Made by a program: the position numbers and the translations under genes | Notes under the pieces: generated by a model | Seen by the model: only the letters and a program-made list of their open reading frames with translations | The model's database searches: none | Told to the model about the DNA's origin: nothing | Shown: positions 31,103-42,081 of the stretch, piece by piece | How the letters are laid out: the number at the start of each line of letters is the position of its first letter | Numbering within the stretch: the first letter of the stretch is position 1 | NCBI GenBank assembly: GCA_017475555.1 | Contig: JAFVFL010000018.1 | Span: 1-63,064, forward strand | DNA: 63,064 bases | Direction of reading: 5' to 3' | From: Ruminococcus sp. | GTDB taxonomy: Bacteria; Bacillota; Clostridia; Oscillospirales; Ruminococcaceae

Positions 31103-31567
31103 TTACTTTACTATTTCCTTTCTCATCAGGTATGCGTCCTCGACCGGGTCGGAGTAGAAGCGCTTTCTGACGGATATCCTTTCAAAGCCGCAGCGGACAT
31201 ACAGCTCCTGAGCGGGGGCGTTGTGTACCCTGACCTCAAGCAGTATGCACTCCGTATCCGGCGGCAGGAGCTGTTCAAATCCGTCCATAAGCTGCATTGC
31301 AAGCCCTCTCCGCCGGTATTCAGGAGCACAGGCTACGCAGTAAATATCGGCTGTATCATATGAAGCACTGCCGGCAATGACTGCTGCGATATTGTCTCCG
31401 TCCACAATGCACAGGACTGTTCCGCCGGGCTTTTCGCATTCCGAGCGGAAGCTCTCCGCAGACCAGCCCTCACTTCCGAGACATTGCCTGCAAAGCTGCG
31501 AGAGCTTGTCAAACATCTCCGGCGGCGAGTCTGCACTGACCCGTATCAGCTGCATATCACCGCTCAC
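31103..31567 (-). CDS. rimI: Ribosomal-protein-S18-alanine N-acetyltransferase-like GNAT
   Basis: A 154-residue GNAT acetyltransferase. The acetyl-CoA-binding loop is CAPEYRRRGLAMQLM (about residues 82-96), followed by LLEVRVHNAPAQELYVRCGF, the RimI signature. RimI acetylates the N terminus of protein S18; in Firmicutes the target is less certain. The start is GTG at 31567, overlapping the stop of the upstream regulator gene; GGAGG lies 9 nt before it within that gene. tsaD follows directly, as in many Firmicutes. Confidence 0.88.
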   Translation of the reverse strand: MSGDMQLIRVSADSPPEMFDKLSQLCRQCLGSEGWSAESFRSECEKPGGTVLCIVDGDNIAAVIAGSASYDTADIYCVACAPEYRRRGLAMQLMDGFEQLLPPDTECILLEVRVHNAPAQELYVRCGFERISVRKRFYSDPVEDAYLMRKEIVK

Positions 31568-33825
31568 TGCTCCTCACCTCCGCTGCCCTTTTCCGGACAG
31601 CCAGCCCGGTATTCCGAGGGTGAGACGCCCTCCGACGATTTGAACTGCCGCACGAAGTAGTTGTACGACGAATAGCCGCATTCCTTTGATATCTCCGTCA
31701 CCGTCATATCCGTATTCGCAAGAAGCTCCTTTGCCTTATCAATGCGGAACTGTATCATTTCCTCGATTATGCTCTTTCCGAAATAGGTCTTGTATATCTT
31801 TTGCAGGTAGCTCTTGCTGAGATACAGATTTTCCGCAATTTCGCTGATATTCCACGGCTTTTCGGGATTTTTCATTATCCTGCTGCGGAGCATACACAGC
31901 TTGCTGAACTGCGGGTTCTCGTTCTGCTCCGACAGGGTGTATGTGAACATACGGTCAACTACCGCTCTGTGCATTGCAGCGGAAAGGCTCATCGCACTGC
32001 CGTTTTTCCCGGAGCTGCCGCCTGCCTCCTCTATAACGCAGGAGCCGAGGGTGAAGTCTATATTGCAGCTGTCCCCGTCAGCACCGCTTTCCCGTATACG
32101 CTCGCAAAGCTCCGGATAAATGGCTTCTGCCCTGCCCTGACGAAGCGTTATCACGCCTATGGAATTGTTCGACCACCTGCCGCATACCTCGTCATCATAC
32201 AGACACGAGCGTACAGCTGCGGCAAAGGCTGTTATCATTCTGTCGCACTTCTCCTCACCGCTCTGATAATAGGTCTTTGAGATACCCGTGAGGTGGAATC
32301 TCAGGCAGTCCACCATGACGTTTTCCTCCGCCTCAGACAGCAGCACCGCAAGCTCATGCTCCATGCCGCTGCGGTTGAGAAGACCGGTGTACGAATCGTA
32401 GAGCAGAGCGTGGTTCGTCTCGGTGATAGTGCGGCTCATGAACGTCTTTATCCGAAGCTGCTCAAGGGCGATATTTATATAGTTTATCCATTGCAGATAA
32501 AGCGAGGTGAACGACATAGGCTCCTTGCCGAATGATACTGCGGCATAGCCGAAGAGATTGCTGTTGTAGTGCAGCGGGGAAATATAGTACGCAGAGGGAA
32601 ACGGACGCTCCTCGCTGAAAACGGGGATAAGGCTTTCTGAGCTGAAATACTCCGTGCCTGATTCCCGCCGCTTTATTGAGGACTTTGATAGTATCATCTT
32701 CACCTCATCGCCGCATTCAAAGGTAAGCCTGCTGCCGAAACTGCCGCCGGGGGATTCAATATATTTCCTCGTTATGAAGAGCCCGACGTGGGACATTTTG
32801 TGTATAAAGAAGGTATACCTGTCAACGGTATCGGCAAATTCAGAAAGGTCAGCAGTGTTTGTCACATCAAAAAGCATATCGCCGTAGAGCAGATAGCCCT
32901 CAAATTTGCTTGTGACGGCGTTTCTTCTTCTCATTTTGGCACTGAGCCTCGGCACGCCCATGCAGCCGCAGCTTTTGCCTATGCACAGTCCGCCGTTCCT
33001 GTCGGGTATCTTGTTGCATATCCTGCCGGTCATTATGCGGTACAGCCGTCTGAATGCCTCCGCACCCATCTGGAAATTCGGGCGGATATAGCTCGTCAGC
33101 GGCGGCTCGAACGACATACCGTGTATCGTAGCGTCGTAGCCCGTCACGGCGATATCCTCCGGTACTCTGATACCGCCCTTTGAAAGTGCGGCTATAAGCT
33201 CCTCTGCGGACACATCATTTCCGCATACCACAGCCTCAGGCATACTGACGTTGCCGTTTATGATATCCCTTGCAAGCTGGTGGGCGGAATCCTTCCAGAA
33301 GTCTCCGTAGCGGATATGGCTCTTGTCGCACCTGAGTCCGTGCTTTTTCATGGAATTTTTGTAGCCCTTGAGCCGTTCCTCTGCGGCAAATGTGCCCTTA
33401 GGCCCTGTAAGGCAGAGGATATCCCTCATTCCGTGTACATTTATAAGGTGGTCGGTTATTGCCTCGAACGCCTCGCCGTCATCTATAGAGGTAGACTCAA
33501 AGCTCCTGTGGCCGCCGGAGTCGAGCAGCATTACAGGCTTGCCGGAGCGGACGAGGAGGTCATCGACATATTTCTGCACGCTGTCGTCGTGGAAGGTGAG
33601 CTTATCGTAGAGAAAGCCGTCAAATCTGTCTGAGAGGATAAGGCTGAATATGCTTTTTTCCATATCCCGGTGAGCGGAGTGGAGGTAGAAGTTGTGGAAT
33701 GGTGCGAGCACAGCTATGTCGCACTGGCTTTTGAATGCCTGCGAGATGATACCACGGAGTATCTCCTCCTGAAAATCCACATGGCAGTCCGTGATCAGGA
33801 CGCCGACAAGCTTTCTCTTTTTCAT
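31564..33825 (-). CDS. LacI-type sugar sensor fused to degenerate GGDEF and AraC DNA-binding domain
   Basis: A 753-residue regulator. Residues 1-290 form a LacI/RbsB-type ligand-binding fold with no DNA-binding domain in front: KLVGVLITDCHVDFQEEILRG at the start, and AVVCGNDVSAEELIAAL, VTGYDATIHG later. After SCGC (about 292) comes a middle region (about 300-480) and then a GGDEF-like domain, starting at YDSYTGLLNRSGME. Its signature is replaced: residues 552-556 read SNNSI after VCGRW. The C-terminal 100 residues are a double AraC HTH (WNISEIAENLYLSKSYLQKIY and MTVTEISKECGYSSYNYFVRQF). It is divergent from the pectin lyase gene and probably controls it. A paralogue lies at 37856-39814. Confidence 0.85.
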   Translation of the reverse strand: MKKRKLVGVLITDCHVDFQEEILRGIISQAFKSQCDIAVLAPFHNFYLHSAHRDMEKSIFSLILSDRFDGFLYDKLTFHDDSVQKYVDDLLVRSGKPVMLLDSGGHRSFESTSIDDGEAFEAITDHLINVHGMRDILCLTGPKGTFAAEERLKGYKNSMKKHGLRCDKSHIRYGDFWKDSAHQLARDIINGNVSMPEAVVCGNDVSAEELIAALSKGGIRVPEDIAVTGYDATIHGMSFEPPLTSYIRPNFQMGAEAFRRLYRIMTGRICNKIPDRNGGLCIGKSCGCMGVPRLSAKMRRRNAVTSKFEGYLLYGDMLFDVTNTADLSEFADTVDRYTFFIHKMSHVGLFITRKYIESPGGSFGSRLTFECGDEVKMILSKSSIKRRESGTEYFSSESLIPVFSEERPFPSAYYISPLHYNSNLFGYAAVSFGKEPMSFTSLYLQWINYINIALEQLRIKTFMSRTITETNHALLYDSYTGLLNRSGMEHELAVLLSEAEENVMVDCLRFHLTGISKTYYQSGEEKCDRMITAFAAAVRSCLYDDEVCGRWSNNSIGVITLRQGRAEAIYPELCERIRESGADGDSCNIDFTLGSCVIEEAGGSSGKNGSAMSLSAAMHRAVVDRMFTYTLSEQNENPQFSKLCMLRSRIMKNPEKPWNISEIAENLYLSKSYLQKIYKTYFGKSIIEEMIQFRIDKAKELLANTDMTVTEISKECGYSSYNYFVRQFKSSEGVSPSEYRAGCPEKGSGGEEQ

Positions 33826-33890
33826 CTGTTCTCATCTCCGGAATGTTTAATATCGGGTGCGTTTTTAGGATAGTGAAGTCTATATGTATT

Positions 33891-33919
33891 ATTCTATCAT
33901 ATAACAGTATAAATTGCAA
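33891..33919 (-). promoter_or_regulatory. Promoter of LacI/AraC-type regulator
   Basis: On the reverse strand TTGCAA (33914-33919), 17-bp spacer, TAGAAT (33891-33896). The leader is about 60 nt. Confidence 0.65.
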
Positions 33920-33982
33920 GACTATTTTGAATATTTACACCTTAAAATCAAAAAAATCTTCTAAACATGATAGTATTGTTCA

Positions 33983-34010
33983 TTGAAAAATCCGAAAAAT
34001 AATGTATAAT
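33983..34010 (+). promoter_or_regulatory. Promoter of pectin lyase gene
   Basis: TTGAAA (33983-33988), 16-bp spacer, TATAAT (34005-34010). The motif ATAGTATTG (33970-33978) just upstream also occurs at 39941-39949, before the second regulator gene. Confidence 0.6.
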
Positions 34011-34120
34011 ATATTTGTAGATAAATTGTGAATGCGTAACATAAAATTAATTATTCAAAGAAAATGGGATAGTCAATCTATCAAGTCTGTCCCAAAGGGG
34101 AATCACAGGAGGAAATTCTT

Positions 34121-37100
34121 ATGGGTAAACTATTCAGGAGATTCGCTGCGGCTGCTGCTTCTGCGGCTGTGTGTGCCTCGACAGCTCTCAGCGTCGTCCC
34201 GGCTTCACAGCTGACCGCCTCGGCGATAGTCAACAAGCAGAGCGATAATGTTCTGGAATACCTCGACAGAGGTATCTGTGCCATAAATACCGGCAGCGGA
34301 ATGCTCGTCAGCTGGAGATGGCTCGGAAATGACAGCGATTCTGCGACCTTCAAGCTCTACCGTGACGGAAATCTCATCTATACCAGCGAGGGCACAGGCT
34401 CGACCTGCTACCTCGATACAGCAGGAAACTCAAGCTCAAAGTACAGAGTAGACACCTACTCCGGCAGCACGCTCACAGGCTCTGAGAACTGCACACTCAT
34501 TTCAAACAACGCTTATTTCGATATCCCTACATCAGCTCCCGGCTCCGGCTACACCCCGAACGATATGTCAGTCGGCGATATCGACGGCGACGGACAGTAC
34601 GAGCTGTTCCTCAAGTGGGATCCCTCGAACTCAAAGGATAACTCACAGAAGGGCAAGACAGACCCGGTCTACATCGACTGCATACGCCTTGACGGAACAA
34701 GAGTATGGCGTATAAACCTCGGAATAAATATCCGTGCGGGTGCTCACTATACTCAGTTTTTTGTAGCTGACTTCGACCTCGACGGAAAGGCTGAGATGTG
34801 CTGTAAGACTGCCGACGGAACAGTTGACGGAAAGGGCAATGTGATAGGTGATTCCTCAAAGGATTACCGTAACTCAAACGGCTATGTACTCTCAGGCCCT
34901 GAGTATTACACCCTCTTCGACGGTGCTACCGGTGCTGCACTCGACACTATCGACTACAAGCCCGGAAGAGGCACTGTAAAGAACTGGGGCGACTCCTACG
35001 GCGGACGCTGTGACCGCTTCTGGGGCTCGGTCGCATATGTTGACGGCGTTCACCCGTGTGTTATCACCGGACGAGGCTACTACACAAGAATGACTGCAAC
35101 GGCATATAAGGTAGAGAACAAGAAGCTGGTGGAGATGTGGGCGTTCGATACCGGAAATTCCTCATCTGCCGCAGGCTACGGCGACGGAAACCACAACAGT
35201 ATGCCGGCTGATGTCGACGGCGACGGAAAGCAGGAGATCTGTACAGGTGCTGCTATAATCGACGACAACGGCCAGCTTTTCTACACCACAGGTCAGGGTC
35301 ACGGTGACGCTCTCCATGTTGCAGATCTCGACCCGACAAACCCCGGTATTGAGGTATGGATATGCCACGAGGAGAAGAAGTCCGGCTACGGAGTTACTCT
35401 CTATGATGCAGACCAGAAGAAGATACTTTATCATCAGAATGGTGCAGGAGATACCGGACGCTGTGCAGCTGATAACGTATGGGCACAGAATCCCGGTGCT
35501 GAGTGCTGGGGCAATAAGCTTTCCGACAACTCAATGCCTGTAGTTGACACAAAGGGCAACGTCCTCTCATGCCGCAGACCGGCGATAAACTTCTTCATCT
35601 ACTGGGACGGCGACCTCGAAAGAGAGATACTTGACGGATATACCGATTCTCCGGCAACTATCACAAGCATGAACGAAAAGGGAACGCTCGACACTATCCT
35701 TACTACGACAGGCTACTACACCTGCAACACAACAAAGGGTACTCCGTGTCTCTCCGCTGATATCTTCGGCGACTGGAGAGAGGAGCTTATCGTAAGAGCA
35801 GCAGATTCCAAGTCAGTACGTATTTTCTGCACTCCCTATGATACAGATTACAGAATAACAACCCTCATGCATGACGCTCAGTACCGTATGCAGGTATCAG
35901 CTGAGCAGACTGCATACAACCAGCCTCCTCATCCGAGCTTCTTCATCGGAACAGGCTACGACCTCCCGCAGAGGTGCGACTACAACGTTCTCGGTGCAAC
36001 AAGCATAAAGGGCAAGCCCGGTGCAGTTATAGATGAGGCACACAAGTACAAGATAAAGAATGTCAACAGCGGTCTTTACCTTGAGGCAGCAGACGGCGTT
36101 GCAGCAAACGGCACAAACGTACAGCAGGGCAATACCGAGTCAGCTGATATCTGGCAGGTAGAGTCCGCAGGCAGCGGCTACTACTACATCTACTACTATG
36201 ACGAGAGCGGCAGCAAGACCTACTGCCTTGATCTTAGCTACGGCGAGACTGATAACGGCACAAATATCGGTATATGGGGCAATGACAACTCCGATGCGAG
36301 AATGTTCAAGTTCGTTGACAACGGCGACGGCACATACACCATATGCACAAAGTCCACGGGAGACGAGAGCTGTATCGGCGTTACGGGAGCTTCAAAGGAC
36401 TCCGGTGCGAATGTAGTGCAGTGGGCGTGCAACGACAGCAATGACCAGAAGTGGGTGCTTGAGGTAAAGGTACTCCCGATAGACGGAGCTCTCTTCAAGC
36501 AGCTTCTCGTTAAGGACACTGATAATTACATTGACTGGAAGATCGAGCCGTCAGTAGGTATCGGCGGTGAGGTATTCGGCGACAGGACATTCACCTACAC
36601 AGAGCTTCCGGCAGAATTTGCAGGCTGTGAGTCGATACAGACAGCGTGTGATTCAAAGAATGCTTCGGGCGATCTTGCTGAGTTCACAGCAGGTGCAGAT
36701 ATGTACGCATATGTTCTCCTCGATCAGAGAAATACCGGAAACCCGGCATGGCTCTCCTCATGGACTGCTACAGGACAGACAGCTAAGTCAGACAATGATG
36801 TGACATACGTCGTTTACAGGAAGCAGCTTGCGGCAGGCGAGAGCGTTACCCTCGGAAACAACGGCATGACCGGCACCGTAGTGAACTACACTGTATTCGG
36901 CAAGGTGCTTCCGTCAAGCGGAAAATATGTGCTCTCACTCGACGTTGAGGACAACGCAAACAGCTCTAAATGGAGCATAAGGGACAGCGTTTCAGTCGGC
37001 GGACTGGTATTCGGCGACAGAGATGTTGTATACACAGCTCTCCCGGACGCAGTTTCCGGAGCTGAGTACATTGAGACAGCGTGCGATTCAAAGTTCGCAG

Positions 37101-37693
37101 ACAGCGAGCTTGCACAGTTCACAGCCGGAGCAGACGTTACAGTATATGTTGCCGTAGACAACAGAGTAACAGCTTCACCGGAGTGGCTCTCAGGCTACAC
37201 AAAGACCGATCTCACAGCTGTTTCGAGCAATGAAGTTACATTCGTTCTCTACAGCAAGGAATACAAGCAGGGCGAGACGGTAGTTCTCGGCACAAACGGA
37301 CAGTCTGCCGGAGCAGTAGGCTACACGGTATTCGTACAGTCAGATGAGACAGTTGATCCTGTAACAACAGCACCGGTCACAACGACTGCACCTGTTGAGA
37401 CAACTACTACAGCAGCTACGACAGCTGCGGCTACGACAGCACCTGAGGAGACTACAACAACATCGGGAACGGTGGTCTATGGCGACGCAAACGAGGACGG
37501 CAAGGTAAATATGGCGGACGCAGTAGCAGTTCTCCAGTATCTTGCAAACAGCGGCAAATACCCTCTCACTCCGCAGGGGCTTGACAATGCGGACGTATAC
37601 AACAGAGGTGACAGTGTCACCGGTCTGGACGCAATTTCCATACAGAAGAAGGACGCAGGAGCTATCGACGCACTTCCTGAGTCATGGCTCTGA
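34121..37693 (+). CDS. Dockerin-bearing rhamnogalacturonan lyase (PL11), modular
   Basis: A 1190-residue secreted enzyme that cleaves the rhamnogalacturonan I backbone of pectin by beta-elimination. Signal peptide: about residues 1-36, cut near ASA. PL11 domain: about 37-635, a beta-propeller with Ca-binding DGDGQYE, DLDGKAE and DVDGDGKQE motifs, as in YesW/YesX. Ricin-type beta-trefoil: about 641-785, with repeated QxW-like motifs (DIWQV, DQKWVL). Two similar modules follow (about 786-928 and 929-1072), each with VGG.VFGDR, a TACDSK block and a closing YTVF; these are likely uncharacterised carbohydrate-binding modules. A Thr-rich linker (1073-1115) leads to a type I dockerin (about 1119-1180) with GDANEDGKVNMAD and a second, weaker loop. 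AGGAGG precedes ATG 34121. Confidence 0.9.
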   Translation: MGKLFRRFAAAAASAAVCASTALSVVPASQLTASAIVNKQSDNVLEYLDRGICAINTGSGMLVSWRWLGNDSDSATFKLYRDGNLIYTSEGTGSTCYLDTAGNSSSKYRVDTYSGSTLTGSENCTLISNNAYFDIPTSAPGSGYTPNDMSVGDIDGDGQYELFLKWDPSNSKDNSQKGKTDPVYIDCIRLDGTRVWRINLGINIRAGAHYTQFFVADFDLDGKAEMCCKTADGTVDGKGNVIGDSSKDYRNSNGYVLSGPEYYTLFDGATGAALDTIDYKPGRGTVKNWGDSYGGRCDRFWGSVAYVDGVHPCVITGRGYYTRMTATAYKVENKKLVEMWAFDTGNSSSAAGYGDGNHNSMPADVDGDGKQEICTGAAIIDDNGQLFYTTGQGHGDALHVADLDPTNPGIEVWICHEEKKSGYGVTLYDADQKKILYHQNGAGDTGRCAADNVWAQNPGAECWGNKLSDNSMPVVDTKGNVLSCRRPAINFFIYWDGDLEREILDGYTDSPATITSMNEKGTLDTILTTTGYYTCNTTKGTPCLSADIFGDWREELIVRAADSKSVRIFCTPYDTDYRITTLMHDAQYRMQVSAEQTAYNQPPHPSFFIGTGYDLPQRCDYNVLGATSIKGKPGAVIDEAHKYKIKNVNSGLYLEAADGVAANGTNVQQGNTESADIWQVESAGSGYYYIYYYDESGSKTYCLDLSYGETDNGTNIGIWGNDNSDARMFKFVDNGDGTYTICTKSTGDESCIGVTGASKDSGANVVQWACNDSNDQKWVLEVKVLPIDGALFKQLLVKDTDNYIDWKIEPSVGIGGEVFGDRTFTYTELPAEFAGCESIQTACDSKNASGDLAEFTAGADMYAYVLLDQRNTGNPAWLSSWTATGQTAKSDNDVTYVVYRKQLAAGESVTLGNNGMTGTVVNYTVFGKVLPSSGKYVLSLDVEDNANSSKWSIRDSVSVGGLVFGDRDVVYTALPDAVSGAEYIETACDSKFADSELAQFTAGADVTVYVAVDNRVTASPEWLSGYTKTDLTAVSSNEVTFVLYSKEYKQGETVVLGTNGQSAGAVGYTVFVQSDETVDPVTTAPVTTTAPVETTTTAATTAAATTAPEETTTTSGTVVYGDANEDGKVNMADAVAVLQYLANSGKYPLTPQGLDNADVYNRGDSVTGLDAISIQKKDAGAIDALPESWL

Positions 37694-37726
37694 TCCTTCT
37701 CTGAACCCTCTTATATTACCCTCCCG

Positions 37727-37758
37727 GAAAGGCTCTCCAATAGGCAGGAGAGCCTTTC
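37727..37758 (+). terminator. Terminator of pectin lyase gene
   Basis: GAAAGGCTCTCC pairs with GGAGAGCCTTTC, followed by TTTT within a few bases. Confidence 0.85.
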
Positions 37759-37806
37759 TTTTGCTGTACTGAAACATTTTGCAGACCGGCTGCTGCTCCG
37801 GAAAGC

Positions 37807-37837
37807 AAAAAGGGGACGCCTGAGCGTCCCCCTTTTT
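37807..37837. terminator. Bidirectional terminator
   Basis: GGGGACGC pairs with GCGTCCCC around CTGA, flanked by AAAAA and TTTTT. Its arms share GGGGACGC with the dispersed hairpin family, but the loop differs. Confidence 0.88.
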
Positions 37838-37855
37838 CATCGTTTATTCAGATAC

Positions 37856-39814
37856 TCATGCCTTGCGAAGATAGCGTGAGGTGCGTTTTTTCTTCTTCTG
37901 CTCGTACATTATCTCGTCAGCTCTCGTGATGAGCGTGAACAGCTTTACGTCCGGGTCTATCTCCGTAACGATAGTGCCTATGCTCGCAGCGACCTCATAC
38001 GGCTTGTGGATTATCTGGTTTATAGCGTTTATCCTGTTCATGAAGCTCCTCTCAAGCGGCTCGATATCGTCCTCAGAAGCGTTTGCCCCGAAGATTATAA
38101 ATTCATCGCCGCCGAACCTTGCACAGATACGTCCGTCCGTGCAGCAATCGCTGATGACCGCCGCAAGCCGCTGGAGTGCAAAATCGCCCTCCTTATGCCC
38201 GTAGCTGTCGTTTATGAGCTTCAGCCCGTCCATATCAATGAAGGATATGAGTATCTTCTCTCCCCTGTCGGCACACTGCTTGAACATCTTGTCAGCCGTG
38301 CGTATAAAGCCGTTGCGGTTGAAGATATTGCACAGCTGATCGGTGACATAAAGCCGCTCAAGGTCGGTGTTTGCACTTTCGAGGCGGACGAGCTTGCGGA
38401 TATTCTCGATAGAGTTGCTTATGTTCATCATAAGGGTGTGGCACAGCATACTCTTCAGCGGAAAATCGCTGTTCGTGATGATGTAGTATCCAAGGCATCT
38501 CTCACGGAAGTGCAGCGGCAGGAAATAGCTCACATTGCCGCCGGTCGTGAGCGTCACAGGGTACATATCCGAGCTCTGGAAGCCAGCGACCTCCGATATC
38601 TCGCCGTTTTTCCACACCAGCGGAGCGGACATGGTACGTGTATAGCCGTAGATCTGGTAATCGTCCTGAGCACCTGCCCAGCTGCCGGGATATGCACTGT
38701 CCCACTCGGAGCACAGGCATATGCAGCACATCTCACAGTGCAGCTCCTTGACGAATCTGCCGATTATCTCAAGCTCCTCGCCGGCAGTCTCAGCCTCGGC
38801 GAGCTCTGTTGTTATGTGGTTGAGGAACGATATATCGTCCCGGCAGCTGTTGATGATATTGTACATATCCTTTCTGAAGCTGCGTGCGTCCTCGTCTGAA
38901 TGGCTGTTGCAGCCGCAGCTCTCGGTAAACACCGGTGCAGCACTGAGGACAGTCTCCACAGGCTCAGACGAACCACGGATACGGCTGAGTACAGCCTTGC
39001 AGGCGTCATATCCGGCTTCATTCAGAGGGCGTGACACCGTGGTGAGAGCCGGGCTGTGGTGGCGGGCGTTGTTTATGTTGTCAAAGCCGGTGACTATTAT
39101 ATCTCCCGGCACGGAAAATCCGCTCCTTTGCAGCTCATCAGCAGCAGCAAGAGCCATTGCGTCATTTGCACAGATAACTGCGTCCGGCTTGGGCATACCT
39201 GAGTCAAGGAACGCTCTTACGCCCTTTCTGCCGTCTACCGCACGGAATTCACCGAAGTAGATACGCCGTGCGTCCGGGGTTATGCCGCACTCGTCCATGA
39301 CCGAGAGGAAGGCATTATATCTGTCCTCAGCCTCCGGATTGGCAAGCGGGCCGGATATGTAGTTTATCAGCCTTGCACTATGCTCGTTCACGACATGGCG
39401 TATAACCTCCTTCATGGGGGTGATGTTGTCGATGCTTATGTTAATAAATTCCGGATAGTCGTCGCAGTCGAGCACCGCAGCGGGCAGCCCGGATTCTATC
39501 GCATTGCGGATTATCCGGTTTTTCTCAGCCGGGTCGCTGATGGTATTGGTCATGAGTATCAGCCCGTCGAAGAAGCTGTAGTTTATCAGGCTGTAGATGT
39601 TGTATTCGCCGACGTCGAAGCCCTTGTTGGAGATAACGCCGCCGAATGCAGAAAACACCGATATATTGACGCTTTCCTCTCTTGCACACGAAATTATCCC
39701 CTCGATCACGCCGTTCTGGTATTCCTCGTCGATACCTGCAACTATGACGGCGATATTGATCATTCCGCCGCCGGGAGTATTTTTTCGGGTCTTAAAGTTA
39801 TCCTGTCCGTTCAT
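37856..39814 (-). CDS. LacI-type sugar sensor fused to intact GGDEF diguanylate cyclase domain
   Basis: A 652-residue soluble protein with no membrane segment. Residues about 18-305 form a LacI/RbsB-like binding fold (INIAVIVAGIDEEYQNGVIEG; DAVICANDAMALAAADEL; IVTGFDNINNARHHSP). SCGC (about 303) ends it. A GAF-like region (about 320-480) follows, then a GGDEF domain (about 490-645) with GGDEF at residues 568-572. The usual RxxD product-inhibition site before it is missing. It should make cyclic di-GMP in response to an intracellular sugar. It is convergent with the lyase gene and paralogous to the AraC-type regulator at 31564-33825. ATG 39814 follows GTGAGGCGA. Confidence 0.85.
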   Translation of the reverse strand: MNGQDNFKTRKNTPGGGMINIAVIVAGIDEEYQNGVIEGIISCAREESVNISVFSAFGGVISNKGFDVGEYNIYSLINYSFFDGLILMTNTISDPAEKNRIIRNAIESGLPAAVLDCDDYPEFINISIDNITPMKEVIRHVVNEHSARLINYISGPLANPEAEDRYNAFLSVMDECGITPDARRIYFGEFRAVDGRKGVRAFLDSGMPKPDAVICANDAMALAAADELQRSGFSVPGDIIVTGFDNINNARHHSPALTTVSRPLNEAGYDACKAVLSRIRGSSEPVETVLSAAPVFTESCGCNSHSDEDARSFRKDMYNIINSCRDDISFLNHITTELAEAETAGEELEIIGRFVKELHCEMCCICLCSEWDSAYPGSWAGAQDDYQIYGYTRTMSAPLVWKNGEISEVAGFQSSDMYPVTLTTGGNVSYFLPLHFRERCLGYYIITNSDFPLKSMLCHTLMMNISNSIENIRKLVRLESANTDLERLYVTDQLCNIFNRNGFIRTADKMFKQCADRGEKILISFIDMDGLKLINDSYGHKEGDFALQRLAAVISDCCTDGRICARFGGDEFIIFGANASEDDIEPLERSFMNRINAINQIIHKPYEVAASIGTIVTEIDPDVKLFTLITRADEIMYEQKKKKRTSRYLRKA

Positions 39815-40145: not shown

Positions 40146-40727
40146 ATGCAGCTTGATACGGAGCAGTACCGGAATGGTATCAGGAGAGTCCTGATAAACC
40201 CGGAGCAGATAAGGGAAAAAATAATTCAGGCAGGCAAGTACATCGACGGGCTTTATGACGGGACGCCGATACTTCTGGTGAGTATCCTCAAGGGGTCGTT
40301 CGTGTTCCTTGCCGACCTGTGCCGTGCGGTGACCGTGCCGTGTGAGGTCGGCTTCATGGCGGCAAAGAGCTACTACGAGGACACTCAGTCGGCGGGTATC
40401 GTCAGTATAACTATGGATCTCCAGCAGGAGATAAAGGACTATAACGTCGTTATCGTCGAGGATATCATCGACACAGGGCGGACACTGAACGACGTGCTGA
40501 AGCTGCTGCGTGCGAGGGAGCCGCATTCGCTCCATGTAGTCACTCTTCTGGACAAGCCGAGCAGGCGTATCGTTGAGCTGAGGGCAGACCTCTCACTTTT
40601 TGAGATAGAGGACTATTTTGTTATAGGATATGGTCTGGATTACGGCGAATACTACCGGAATCTGCCGTATATCGCAGAGTGTGACCCGAAAAAAATAAAA
40701 TCAACAGGAGCTGAGAAAAATGCTTGA
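40146..40727 (+). CDS. hpt: Hypoxanthine phosphoribosyltransferase
   Basis: Salvages hypoxanthine and guanine to IMP and GMP using PRPP. The 193-residue protein shows LLVSILKGSFVFLADL, the VVIVEDIIDTGRTL PRPP-binding motif (about residues 99-112) and LLDKPSRR. Its length is slightly above the usual 175-185. AGGGAGGACGGTAAT precedes the ATG. The gene overlaps the purine permease gene by 8 bp, so import and salvage are coupled. Confidence 0.94.
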   Translation: MQLDTEQYRNGIRRVLINPEQIREKIIQAGKYIDGLYDGTPILLVSILKGSFVFLADLCRAVTVPCEVGFMAAKSYYEDTQSAGIVSITMDLQQEIKDYNVVIVEDIIDTGRTLNDVLKLLRAREPHSLHVVTLLDKPSRRIVELRADLSLFEIEDYFVIGYGLDYGEYYRNLPYIAECDPKKIKSTGAEKNA

Positions 40728-42081
40728 AAAGATGTTTAAGCTGAAGGAAAACAAGACTACGGTGAAGACGGAGCTTGCTGCCGGTCTGACGACGTTCATG
40801 ACTATGGCGTACATACTTGCCGTCAATCCGAGTGTACTATCCGCTGCCGGAATGGACTCTACAGCGGTACTGCTTGCAACGTGCCTTGCCTCGTTCATAG
40901 GTACTGCGTGCATGGCGTTCATGGCGAATCTGCCGTTCGCACTCTCTGCCGGAATGGGGCTGAATGCCTACATGGCGTACACGGTCTGCGGTGTTATGGG
41001 ATATCCGTGGCAGGTCGCACTTCTTGCGGTGTTCATTGAGGGTATTATTTTTATCGTCCTCTCGCTCACCAATGTCCGTGAGGCGATATTCAATTCAATA
41101 CCGCTTTCGCTCAAGAGAGCCGTTTCTGTCGGTATCGGTCTGTTCATCGCCTTCATAGGTCTGCAAAACGCCGGACTTGCCGTAGATTCGGCAACTCTTG
41201 TGTCGCTCGTGAGCTTCCGTGAGAGCTTTTCGACCTCCGGTATATGTGCTCTGCTTGCGGTCATCGGAGTGCTGCTGACTGCGGTGCTGTACATAAAGAA
41301 GGTGCCCGGCTCAATACTCATCGGCATAATCGCAACGTGGCTTCTCGGCATACTCTGCCAGCTTGCCGGGATATACCAGCTCGACCCGGATAACGGCTAT
41401 TATTCGCTGATACCGGGCTTCAGAATGACAGACTTCTCAAGGCTCGGTGATACCTTTGGTCAGTGCTTCAAGGTGGATTTCAGCAATGTCGGCGTGTTCA
41501 ATTTCATAGTCGTCATATTCTCGTTCCTGTTCGTTGACCTGTTTGATACGCTCGGAACTCTCATCGGAGTTGCGACAAAGGCGGATATGCTCGACAAGGA
41601 CGGCAGACTCCCCAGAATAAAGCCCGCACTTCTTGCGGACGCAGTTGCTACCTCAGCCGGAGCAGTCCTCGGAACATCTACCACCACAACGTTCGTTGAG
41701 TCCTCCGCAGGAGTTGCAGCCGGAGGAAGAACAGGACTTACCTCACTCACAACGGCAGTGCTTTTCCTGCTTTCAATGCTTTTCGCACCGATATTCACAG
41801 CTATCCCGTCGTTTGCTACGGCTCCTGCGCTTATCATAGTCGGATTCCTGATGTTCAGCACGATCACGGAGATAAAGTTCAGTGACGGAAACTACACCTC
41901 AGCGATACCGGCGTACCTGTGCATTATCGCAATGCCGCTGTTCTACAGCATATCTGAGGGTATCTCGCTCGGCGTTATATCATATGTCGTGATAAATCTC
42001 GTATGCGGAAAGAGGAGCAAGATAAACCCGATAATGTATGTTCTTGCGGTACTTTTTGTACTGAAATATATTTTCCTCTGA
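40720..42081 (+). CDS. NCS2/AzgA-type purine base permease
   Basis: A 453-residue proton-linked permease for hypoxanthine, guanine or adenine, with 12-13 helices. AGLTTFMTMAYILAVNPSVLSAAG and LPFALSAGMGLNAYMAYTV are family hallmarks of the AzgA (PbuG/PbuO) branch; FLFVDLFDTLGTLIGVA and TTTFVESSAGVAAGGRTGLTSL follow. GGAG precedes ATG 40720 within the end of hpt. The genomic link with hpt supports hypoxanthine/guanine as substrate. It ends 6 bp before the dispersed hairpin. Confidence 0.92.
   Translation: MLEKMFKLKENKTTVKTELAAGLTTFMTMAYILAVNPSVLSAAGMDSTAVLLATCLASFIGTACMAFMANLPFALSAGMGLNAYMAYTVCGVMGYPWQVALLAVFIEGIIFIVLSLTNVREAIFNSIPLSLKRAVSVGIGLFIAFIGLQNAGLAVDSATLVSLVSFRESFSTSGICALLAVIGVLLTAVLYIKKVPGSILIGIIATWLLGILCQLAGIYQLDPDNGYYSLIPGFRMTDFSRLGDTFGQCFKVDFSNVGVFNFIVVIFSFLFVDLFDTLGTLIGVATKADMLDKDGRLPRIKPALLADAVATSAGAVLGTSTTTTFVESSAGVAAGGRTGLTSLTTAVLFLLSMLFAPIFTAIPSFATAPALIIVGFLMFSTITEIKFSDGNYTSAIPAYLCIIAMPLFYSISEGISLGVISYVVINLVCGKRSKINPIMYVLAVLFVLKYIFL

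Follow-up and report, generated by a model that had tools for sequence, protein, structure and literature searches.

How is a pectin lyase gene controlled when the genes on both sides of it encode versions of the same sensor? This question is raised by a locus in a 63,064-nucleotide contig of Ruminococcus sp. (GenBank assembly GCA_017475555.1, contig JAFVFL010000018.1), the whole of which was analysed and is called the window below. The host is a Ruminococcus-type bacterium that likely degrades plant fibre. A polysaccharide lyase gene of family PL11 lies here between two related regulator genes, whose products we call RegA and RegG. The first-pass annotation, made from the sequence alone, had proposed that a duplication left one copy signalling through cyclic di-GMP (c-di-GMP) and the other binding DNA, so that a cytosolic sugar could set both second-messenger level and pectinase transcription. 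We consider it reasonably probable that RegA acts in another way, as a cytosolic, one-component, XylR-like sugar-responsive activator of the PL11 gene, of a pectate lyase gene elsewhere in the genome and of itself, with a dead GGDEF domain as a structural relay. At the level of sequence, RegA has the domain architecture described below, has lost the GGDEF motif and the metal-binding Asp, and faces a conserved operator-like element at the PL11 -35 box, which is repeated at the -35 box of the pectate lyase gene.

31564-33825, minus strand: RegA, 753 amino acids (aa), from the open reading frame (ORF) list, Pfam and AlphaFold2. LacI-type ligand domain, about 1-290; SCGC motif, 285-288; middle domain, about 300-440; long helix, 441-475; degenerate GGDEF domain, 475-630 (SNNSI at 552-556); AraC helix-turn-helix (HTH), 663-741.
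34121-37693, plus strand: PL11 gene, 1190 aa, with RGL11_C, RicinB lectin and Dockerin_1 (type I dockerin) domains and a signal-like N terminus; the predicted target.
37856-39814, minus strand: RegG, 652 aa, with the same sensor part as RegA and an intact GGDEF domain; a predicted diguanylate cyclase.

ORFs, Pfam and profile alignment agree with the architecture that had been described for the two proteins: a LacI/RbsB-type fold without its DNA-binding domain, SCGC, a middle region and a GGDEF-type domain, with an AraC HTH added in one. Pfam places Peripla_BP_3 at residues 125-274 of RegA (E = 4e-22), HTH_18 at 663-741 (E = 1e-19) and a GGDEF match at 475-577 (E = 5.7e-8) whose 33.1 bits lie above the Pfam cut-off of 23.8; RegG matches Peripla_BP_3 at 147-293 and GGDEF at 491-645 (E = 9e-30). 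The LacI HTH is missing from RegA, as LacI-family matches start at their residues 54 to 60 (PurR, 1jft, from 59). SCGC ends the ligand domain in both proteins (299-302 in RegG) and does not vary in any row of the two family alignments (33 and 29 rows). Averaged over 19 residues, hydrophobicity peaks at 0.94 in RegA and 1.24 in RegG, less than would be expected of a membrane helix.

Over an alignment of 552 aa, RegA and RegG share 21% identity (E = 8e-34). The match between their family profiles spans 602 columns (probability 100, E = 2.5e-51) and reaches RegG residue 632, in the last part of the GGDEF domain. The residues at the motif are those reported earlier: GGDEF at 568-572 of RegG, and SNNSI, preceded by VCGRW, at 552-556 of RegA. 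RegG has a GG[DE]EF-type motif and the metal-binding Asp residues; RegA has neither such a motif nor an Asp at the position of metal-binding Asp527 (RegG numbering). In AlphaFold2 models of the full proteins, a long helix leads into the GGDEF-type domain of each, and RegA 477-630 and the GGDEF domain of RegG have the same order of helices and strands, so the AraC protein is predicted to retain a GGDEF-like fold, as the first-pass annotation supposed. A fold search with the RegA model gave LacI-type chains only among the matches listed, by a method that barely probes the parts outside the LacI domain. Of 33 aligned members including RegA (alignment A1), all carry the AraC HTH and 29, RegA among them, match GGDEF at E 0.01. 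Pfam, profile alignment and predicted element order together place a GGDEF-type domain at RegA 477-630.

The two proteins belong to a larger family. Seven Peripla_BP_3 proteins are present in the host genome: one ordinary LacI regulator and six family members. Three of the six have GGDEF (RegG, L047 and L049), two have a degenerate GGDEF with AraC (RegA and L048), and one has AraC without GGDEF (L046). Each of the three AraC forms is divergent from a dockerin gene, which for L048 encodes GH30C, CBM_4_9, dockerin and esterase parts.

From fetched stretches and the window, we assembled 151 family proteins longer than 450 aa, 150 of which were aligned. In these sets, which were collected by querying with RegA and RegG in hand-chosen stretches and are not a census, the motif GG[DE]E[FYM] occurs in none of the 96 aligned HTH-bearing members (97 collected) and in all 54 HTH-less members. 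The closest approach among HTH-bearing members is GSEEF, in two. Asp527 together with Asp or Glu at 570 follows the same split (0/96 with HTH, 54/54 without), and nine of the 54 HTH-less members read R-I/T-GGDEY/F. In a second sample, the motif was found in none of the best 120 of 429 RegA relatives and in all of the best 120 of 903 RegG relatives. Judged from these sequences, the family has expanded in the genus, and AraC head and live cyclase motif are mutually exclusive in the aligned members.

Some relatives have gone further, with the GGDEF domain wholly missing in 12, including L046 of the host genome. A dockerin gene is immediately divergent from the host-genome form and from nine of the 11 forms of other genomes, and is the second gene in a tenth. 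At L046 (3166-7338 and 8334-12770), the GGDEF-deleted relative of RegA stands beside a dockerin protein, with a sugar ABC transporter and a Glyco_hydro_88 protein on the other side; these neighbour genes suggest a second pectin-related regulator.

A tree of the sensor part (82 rows), built by a quick method with support from the Shimodaira-Hasegawa approximate likelihood ratio test (SH-aLRT) only and with 21 of 79 inner branches open, needs two changes between HTH and GGDEF states. RegA falls among the AraC-headed proteins, in a group whose sister is the GGDEF-deleted form (support 99); RegG belongs to a GGDEF clade far from it. RegA orthologues (at least 45% identity, fragments included) occur at 43 places in 42 of 60 genus genomes, besides many paralogues. 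In an order-level sample of 117 genomes, three have a match at 1e-40, namely the genome of the window and two from a single sister genus. At L149 (8620-10838), the gene for a RegA orthologue next to a PL11 gene is interrupted, leaving two frames (219 and 533 aa), either because it is broken or through a sequencing error.

The association of AraC-headed members with dockerin genes extends beyond the host. The host genome itself has 70 dockerin matches. We searched with a hidden Markov model built from 29 of its dockerins and compared the next upstream gene on either strand with genes at offsets 3 to 5, leaving offsets 1 and 2 other than the tested one out of the control. AraC-headed paralogues have a dockerin next upstream in 16 of 38 cases (14 divergent) versus 6 of 132 in the control (p = 6e-8), and at the next downstream gene in 9 of 39. 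The RegA set, which takes in the broken L149 orthologue and one 33% relative (L150), gives 10/38 (7 divergent) versus 8/107 (p = 0.007), with a dockerin at the second upstream gene in 12/32. No significant enrichment was found next upstream of the RegG type (6/40 versus 12/157, p = 0.21). A link to dockerin genes in related genomes is seen for the AraC-headed members and is not significant for the RegG type.

These results bear on the proposal that RegA and RegG are a duplicated, coupled pair sensing one sugar, one protein making c-di-GMP and the other directing pectinase transcription. The architecture of the two is identical up to the GGDEF domain, and they flank the same gene. However, a RegG orthologue (>45% identity) is present in none of 80 RegA loci, 12 of which span less than 9 kb, and none of 40 in a second set; the two sets overlap in genomes, so the counts are not summed. 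The two proteins also sit in distant clades at 21% identity, and the neighbour genes of RegG relatives vary, with the dockerin result above. We therefore regard a coupled pair as very improbable, and RegG as a neighbour rather than a conserved partner of RegA. Of the duplication proposed at the outset, the split between motif-keeping and HTH-bearing proteins stands without exception in the 150 aligned members, but a conserved or recent pair does not; we reject a recent local duplication on the basis of the quick-method tree, with its 21 of 79 open inner branches. No result obtained here favours a single sugar that sets both c-di-GMP level and pectinase transcription, a link at which no direct test was aimed.

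Judging by its sequence, RegG probably has cyclase activity, a sensor of the RegA type and a role independent of RegA. PurR and CytR are good matches to its ligand domain, and an hpt-like gene and an NCS2-type permease gene (both named by eye) are divergent from it at 40146-42081 of the window. We rejected a purine sensor, as such genes appear beside none of 40 relatives among the genes shown (up to three downstream and four upstream). In 9 of the 40 loci (L173, L176 to L180, L182, L184 and L186), a divergent family of secreted-looking proteins of about 790 aa is adjacent to RegG. The one tested has a weak solute-binding domain (PF13416), and the family is a possible partner of the RegG sensor.

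With RegG set aside, the question becomes whether RegA controls the PL11 gene. The PL11 link is frequent and far from universal. An upstream gene is available at 74 of the 80 RegA loci, and the divergent gene has a PL11 catalytic part in 25 of the 74, a count from which two same-strand neighbours without that part were left out. PL11 is present in 56 of the 60 genus genomes. The region between regA and the PL11 gene contains these features:

33891-33919, minus strand: predicted RegA promoter (-35 TTGCAA, spacing 17, -10 TAGAAT), conserved among 77 aligned RegA upstream regions.
33951-33985, minus strand: operator-like element of 35 bp, CAATGAACAATACTATCATGTTTAGAAGATTTTTT, with the blocks TATC and AGAAGATT; positions 33983-33985 overlap the PL11 -35 box.
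33983-34010, plus strand: predicted PL11 promoter (-35 TTGAAA, spacing 16, -10 TATAAT), with 11 of 12 consensus bases.

Four promoter-like sites were found in 33826-34120 versus 2.2 expected in shuffles, and the RegA and PL11 sites are divergent. In the 77 aligned regions, both -10 regions, the RegA -35 box and the inter-promoter block are conserved, so the region that had been proposed for footprinting does contain a conserved operator-like element by alignment and pattern searches alike. The block, used as a pattern with at most 2 mismatches, has two sites in the host genome and none in the reversed control. The second site is on another contig, in the -35 region (TTGTCA-17-TATAAT) of a pectate lyase gene (L334:5652-8624) whose product has Pectate_lyase_4 (E = 1e-13), RicinB and Dockerin_1 domains; Pectate_lyase_4 is a match that we take to correspond to CAZy family PL1. 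At both promoters the last three bases of the element are the TTG of the -35 box, in the same geometry. About 4 kb from the pectate lyase gene, L334:1-1629 (minus strand) encodes a secreted protein that by eye resembles a beta-helix lyase.

Across the 60 genomes, the 35-bp form with at most 3 mismatches gave 37 sites in 35 genomes and none in the reversed control. All sites except one are 90 to 257 bp ahead of a RegA orthologue, and the remaining one is ahead of the pectate lyase gene. We also built a matrix from 61 sites and scanned 400 bp upstream at a threshold of 15 bits. The pectate lyase site scores 44.7 bits. None of 44 AraC paralogues, 13 short AraC forms (the 12 GGDEF-deleted forms and a fragment of the broken L149 gene) or 54 GGDEF forms reached the threshold in these 400 bp. 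A weak, 5-mismatch match to the element lies near the start of the GGDEF-deleted relative in the host genome (L046:10142). An imperfect inverted repeat of 17 nucleotides (33884-33900 and 33967-33983, 76%) joins the RegA -10 region to the element core; it would place half of an operator-like site, possibly a second half, on that -10 region and is a hint of autorepression.

Several observations weigh against RegA as a pectin regulator. Of the 35 element-bearing genomes, 34 have the element solely ahead of RegA, and the pectate lyase site is known from a single genome. With 3 mismatches allowed, the element is missing from seven of the 43 RegA orthologue places; with 2 allowed, the shorter form is absent from 20 of 76 RegA upstream regions; and no element was found at the other two PL11 genes of the host genome (L335 and L336) even at 8 mismatches. 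The matrix reaches at least 15 bits in 33 of 39 RegA orthologues, which is circular because it was built from RegA orthologues. Finally, the divergent neighbour of RegA is an ABC-F ATPase gene in 24 of 74 loci, so the PL11 linkage is lineage-limited.

In a different reading, RegA would chiefly regulate itself within a conserved locus (an ABC-F / release-factor region), and its adjacency to PL11 would be an accident of lineage. The element does track RegA rather than PL11 (36 of 37 sites), an ABC-F gene is the neighbour in the 24 loci just named, and RegA orthologues occur in 42 of 60 genomes versus 56 of 60 for PL11. Against it stand the pectate lyase site on another contig of the host genome, again at a -35 box, the dockerin linkage of the AraC-headed paralogues, and the PL11 gene divergent from RegA in 25 loci. 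We consider this role rather unlikely.

In nine loci with an ABC-F-facing RegA (L121, L124, L125 and L127 to L132), whose genomes keep the RegA element though PL11 is not adjacent, the ABC-F gene is followed by genes for a dockerin protein of 310 to 320 aa, a 455-aa protein and a small AraC-like protein; the 455-aa protein of this type of locus is a radical SAM-SPASM protein in the one tested (L113). RegA orthologues of the cultured strains R. flavefaciens 007c and ATCC 19208 (L279 and L282) likewise face ABC-F. At L126 (6413-8444), a PL11 gene next to a RegA orthologue is broken into two frames, and the element between both is kept (1 mismatch).

RegA might instead be a c-di-GMP effector, with its degenerate GGDEF domain binding c-di-GMP from RegG or other cyclases and tuning the AraC head, so that sugar and c-di-GMP are integrated at the PL11 promoter. 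The host genome has 17 GGDEF and 6 EAL matches and no PilZ match; none of the EAL matches is on the window's contig (C31), in line with the earlier statement that the window has no PilZ or EAL protein. The degenerate domain of RegA orthologues keeps conserved residues and a GGDEF-like element order. Precedents exist in VfmE, described as an AraC-type c-di-GMP effector controlling pectate lyase in excerpts of PMC9045272, and in degenerate GGDEF receptors such as PopA, in excerpts of PMC12564702.

Against an effector role, the I-site RxxD is found in none of 83 RegA-type proteins (nor in any of 54 live-motif forms), because of which the dead GGDEF is unlikely, on sequence, to be an I-site-type c-di-GMP receptor. 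The sister group has dropped the domain yet is still divergent from dockerin genes, which suggests that the domain is dispensable for the link with these genes. VfmE itself binds c-di-GMP through an RxxxR motif, and the excerpts of PMC9045272 do not mention a GGDEF domain in it. We judge c-di-GMP integration by RegA to be unlikely. No c-di-GMP riboswitch was found near the genes: in the window, L334, L046, L048 and L049, only two tRNAs reached the gathering score.

The reading that we favour is RegA as a sugar-responsive activator with a structural GGDEF relay. In the proposed mechanism, a pectin product would bind the LacI-type domain of RegA inside the cell. The resulting change would run along the long helix and the dead GGDEF domain, which would together serve as a dimer and relay module and not as an enzyme or a c-di-GMP receptor. 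The AraC heads would then bind the element beside the -35 box and recruit polymerase, turning on the PL11 and pectate lyase genes. Activation is the expected direction because the element abuts the -35 box, as it does with AraC-type class II activators. The element ahead of regA would provide feedback on regA, and we infer self-regulation because 36 of 37 elements are ahead of a RegA orthologue.

A wider reading takes in the family as a whole. Cytosolic regulators found across the genus would be sugar-sensing cyclases converted to transcription factors, in which AraC head and live GGDEF never occur together and the dead cyclase is either kept as a dimerising relay or deleted. They would form a local cellulosome switchboard, many of them divergent from their own dockerin gene, with RegA as the pectin branch, acting through an operator of its own on a regulon made up of PL11, the PL1-type pectate lyase and itself. 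We offer this reading tentatively, at somewhat less than even chances.

With an operator and a regulon of two enzymes predicted for it, the regulator family opens cellulosome induction in Ruminococcus to direct testing. It is also a case of an enzyme domain retained in a transcription factor after loss of its active-site residues, with live-motif, dead-domain and domain-deleted forms together in one genome. We found no report of the RegA domain combination, the exclusion rule, the expansion beside dockerin genes or the operator in open-licence PubMed Central literature, and no literature there under the first words of the label "substrate-binding and GGDEF domain-containing protein" (NCBI/UniRef), which some RegG relatives carry among the matches listed and which is a label only. 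In excerpts of the literature searched, no description of substrate switching of Ruminococcus cellulosome genes was found. The parts are familiar: LacI-type plus AraC regulators, AraC-type pectin regulators, dead GGDEF effectors and AraC-type c-di-GMP effectors are already known.

The nearest known architecture is that of E. coli XylR (PDB 4fe4/4fe7), which joins a LacI-type xylose domain to an AraC head with no further domain between them. XylR and RegA are alike in their end domains, the order of these and, as predicted for RegA, one-component sugar sensing, and by sequence XylR matches only the HTH part of RegA. RegA differs in having a middle domain, a long helix and a dead GGDEF domain between the ends, and is 753 aa long versus 392 to 412 for the PDB chains of XylR. 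Unlike the LacI repressor family, RegA has no N-terminal LacI HTH. PopA-type effectors share with RegA a GGDEF domain with a dead A-site, but PopA keeps the I-site RxxD that RegA-type proteins lack (excerpts of PMC12564702). VfmE and CuxR are AraC-type, like RegA, and VfmE controls pectate lyase; they bind c-di-GMP through a PilZ-like RxxxR motif, and neither a GGDEF nor a LacI-type domain is mentioned in the excerpts of PMC9045272. In Caldicellulosiruptor, PecR, PecR2 and HemR are AraC-family local regulators predicted to control adjacent pectate lyase or pectin-oligosaccharide transporter genes (PMC8579813, in part). They resemble RegA as AraC-family regulators beside pectin genes, and are set apart by description only, as the excerpts of that paper do not mention LacI-type or GGDEF domains. 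The proteins identified in fractions of R. flavefaciens 007 include one with the label AraC transcriptional regulator, according to excerpts of PMC3672088. For cellulosomes, the review excerpted in PMC12484212 describes substrate sensing by sigma and anti-sigma factors. Sigma-I/RsgI of clostridial cellulosomes resembles RegA in polysaccharide-responsive control of cellulosomal genes, but senses through an anti-sigma factor with an extracellular carbohydrate-binding module (PMC12484212, in part), whereas for RegA we predict one-component regulation from within the cytosol.

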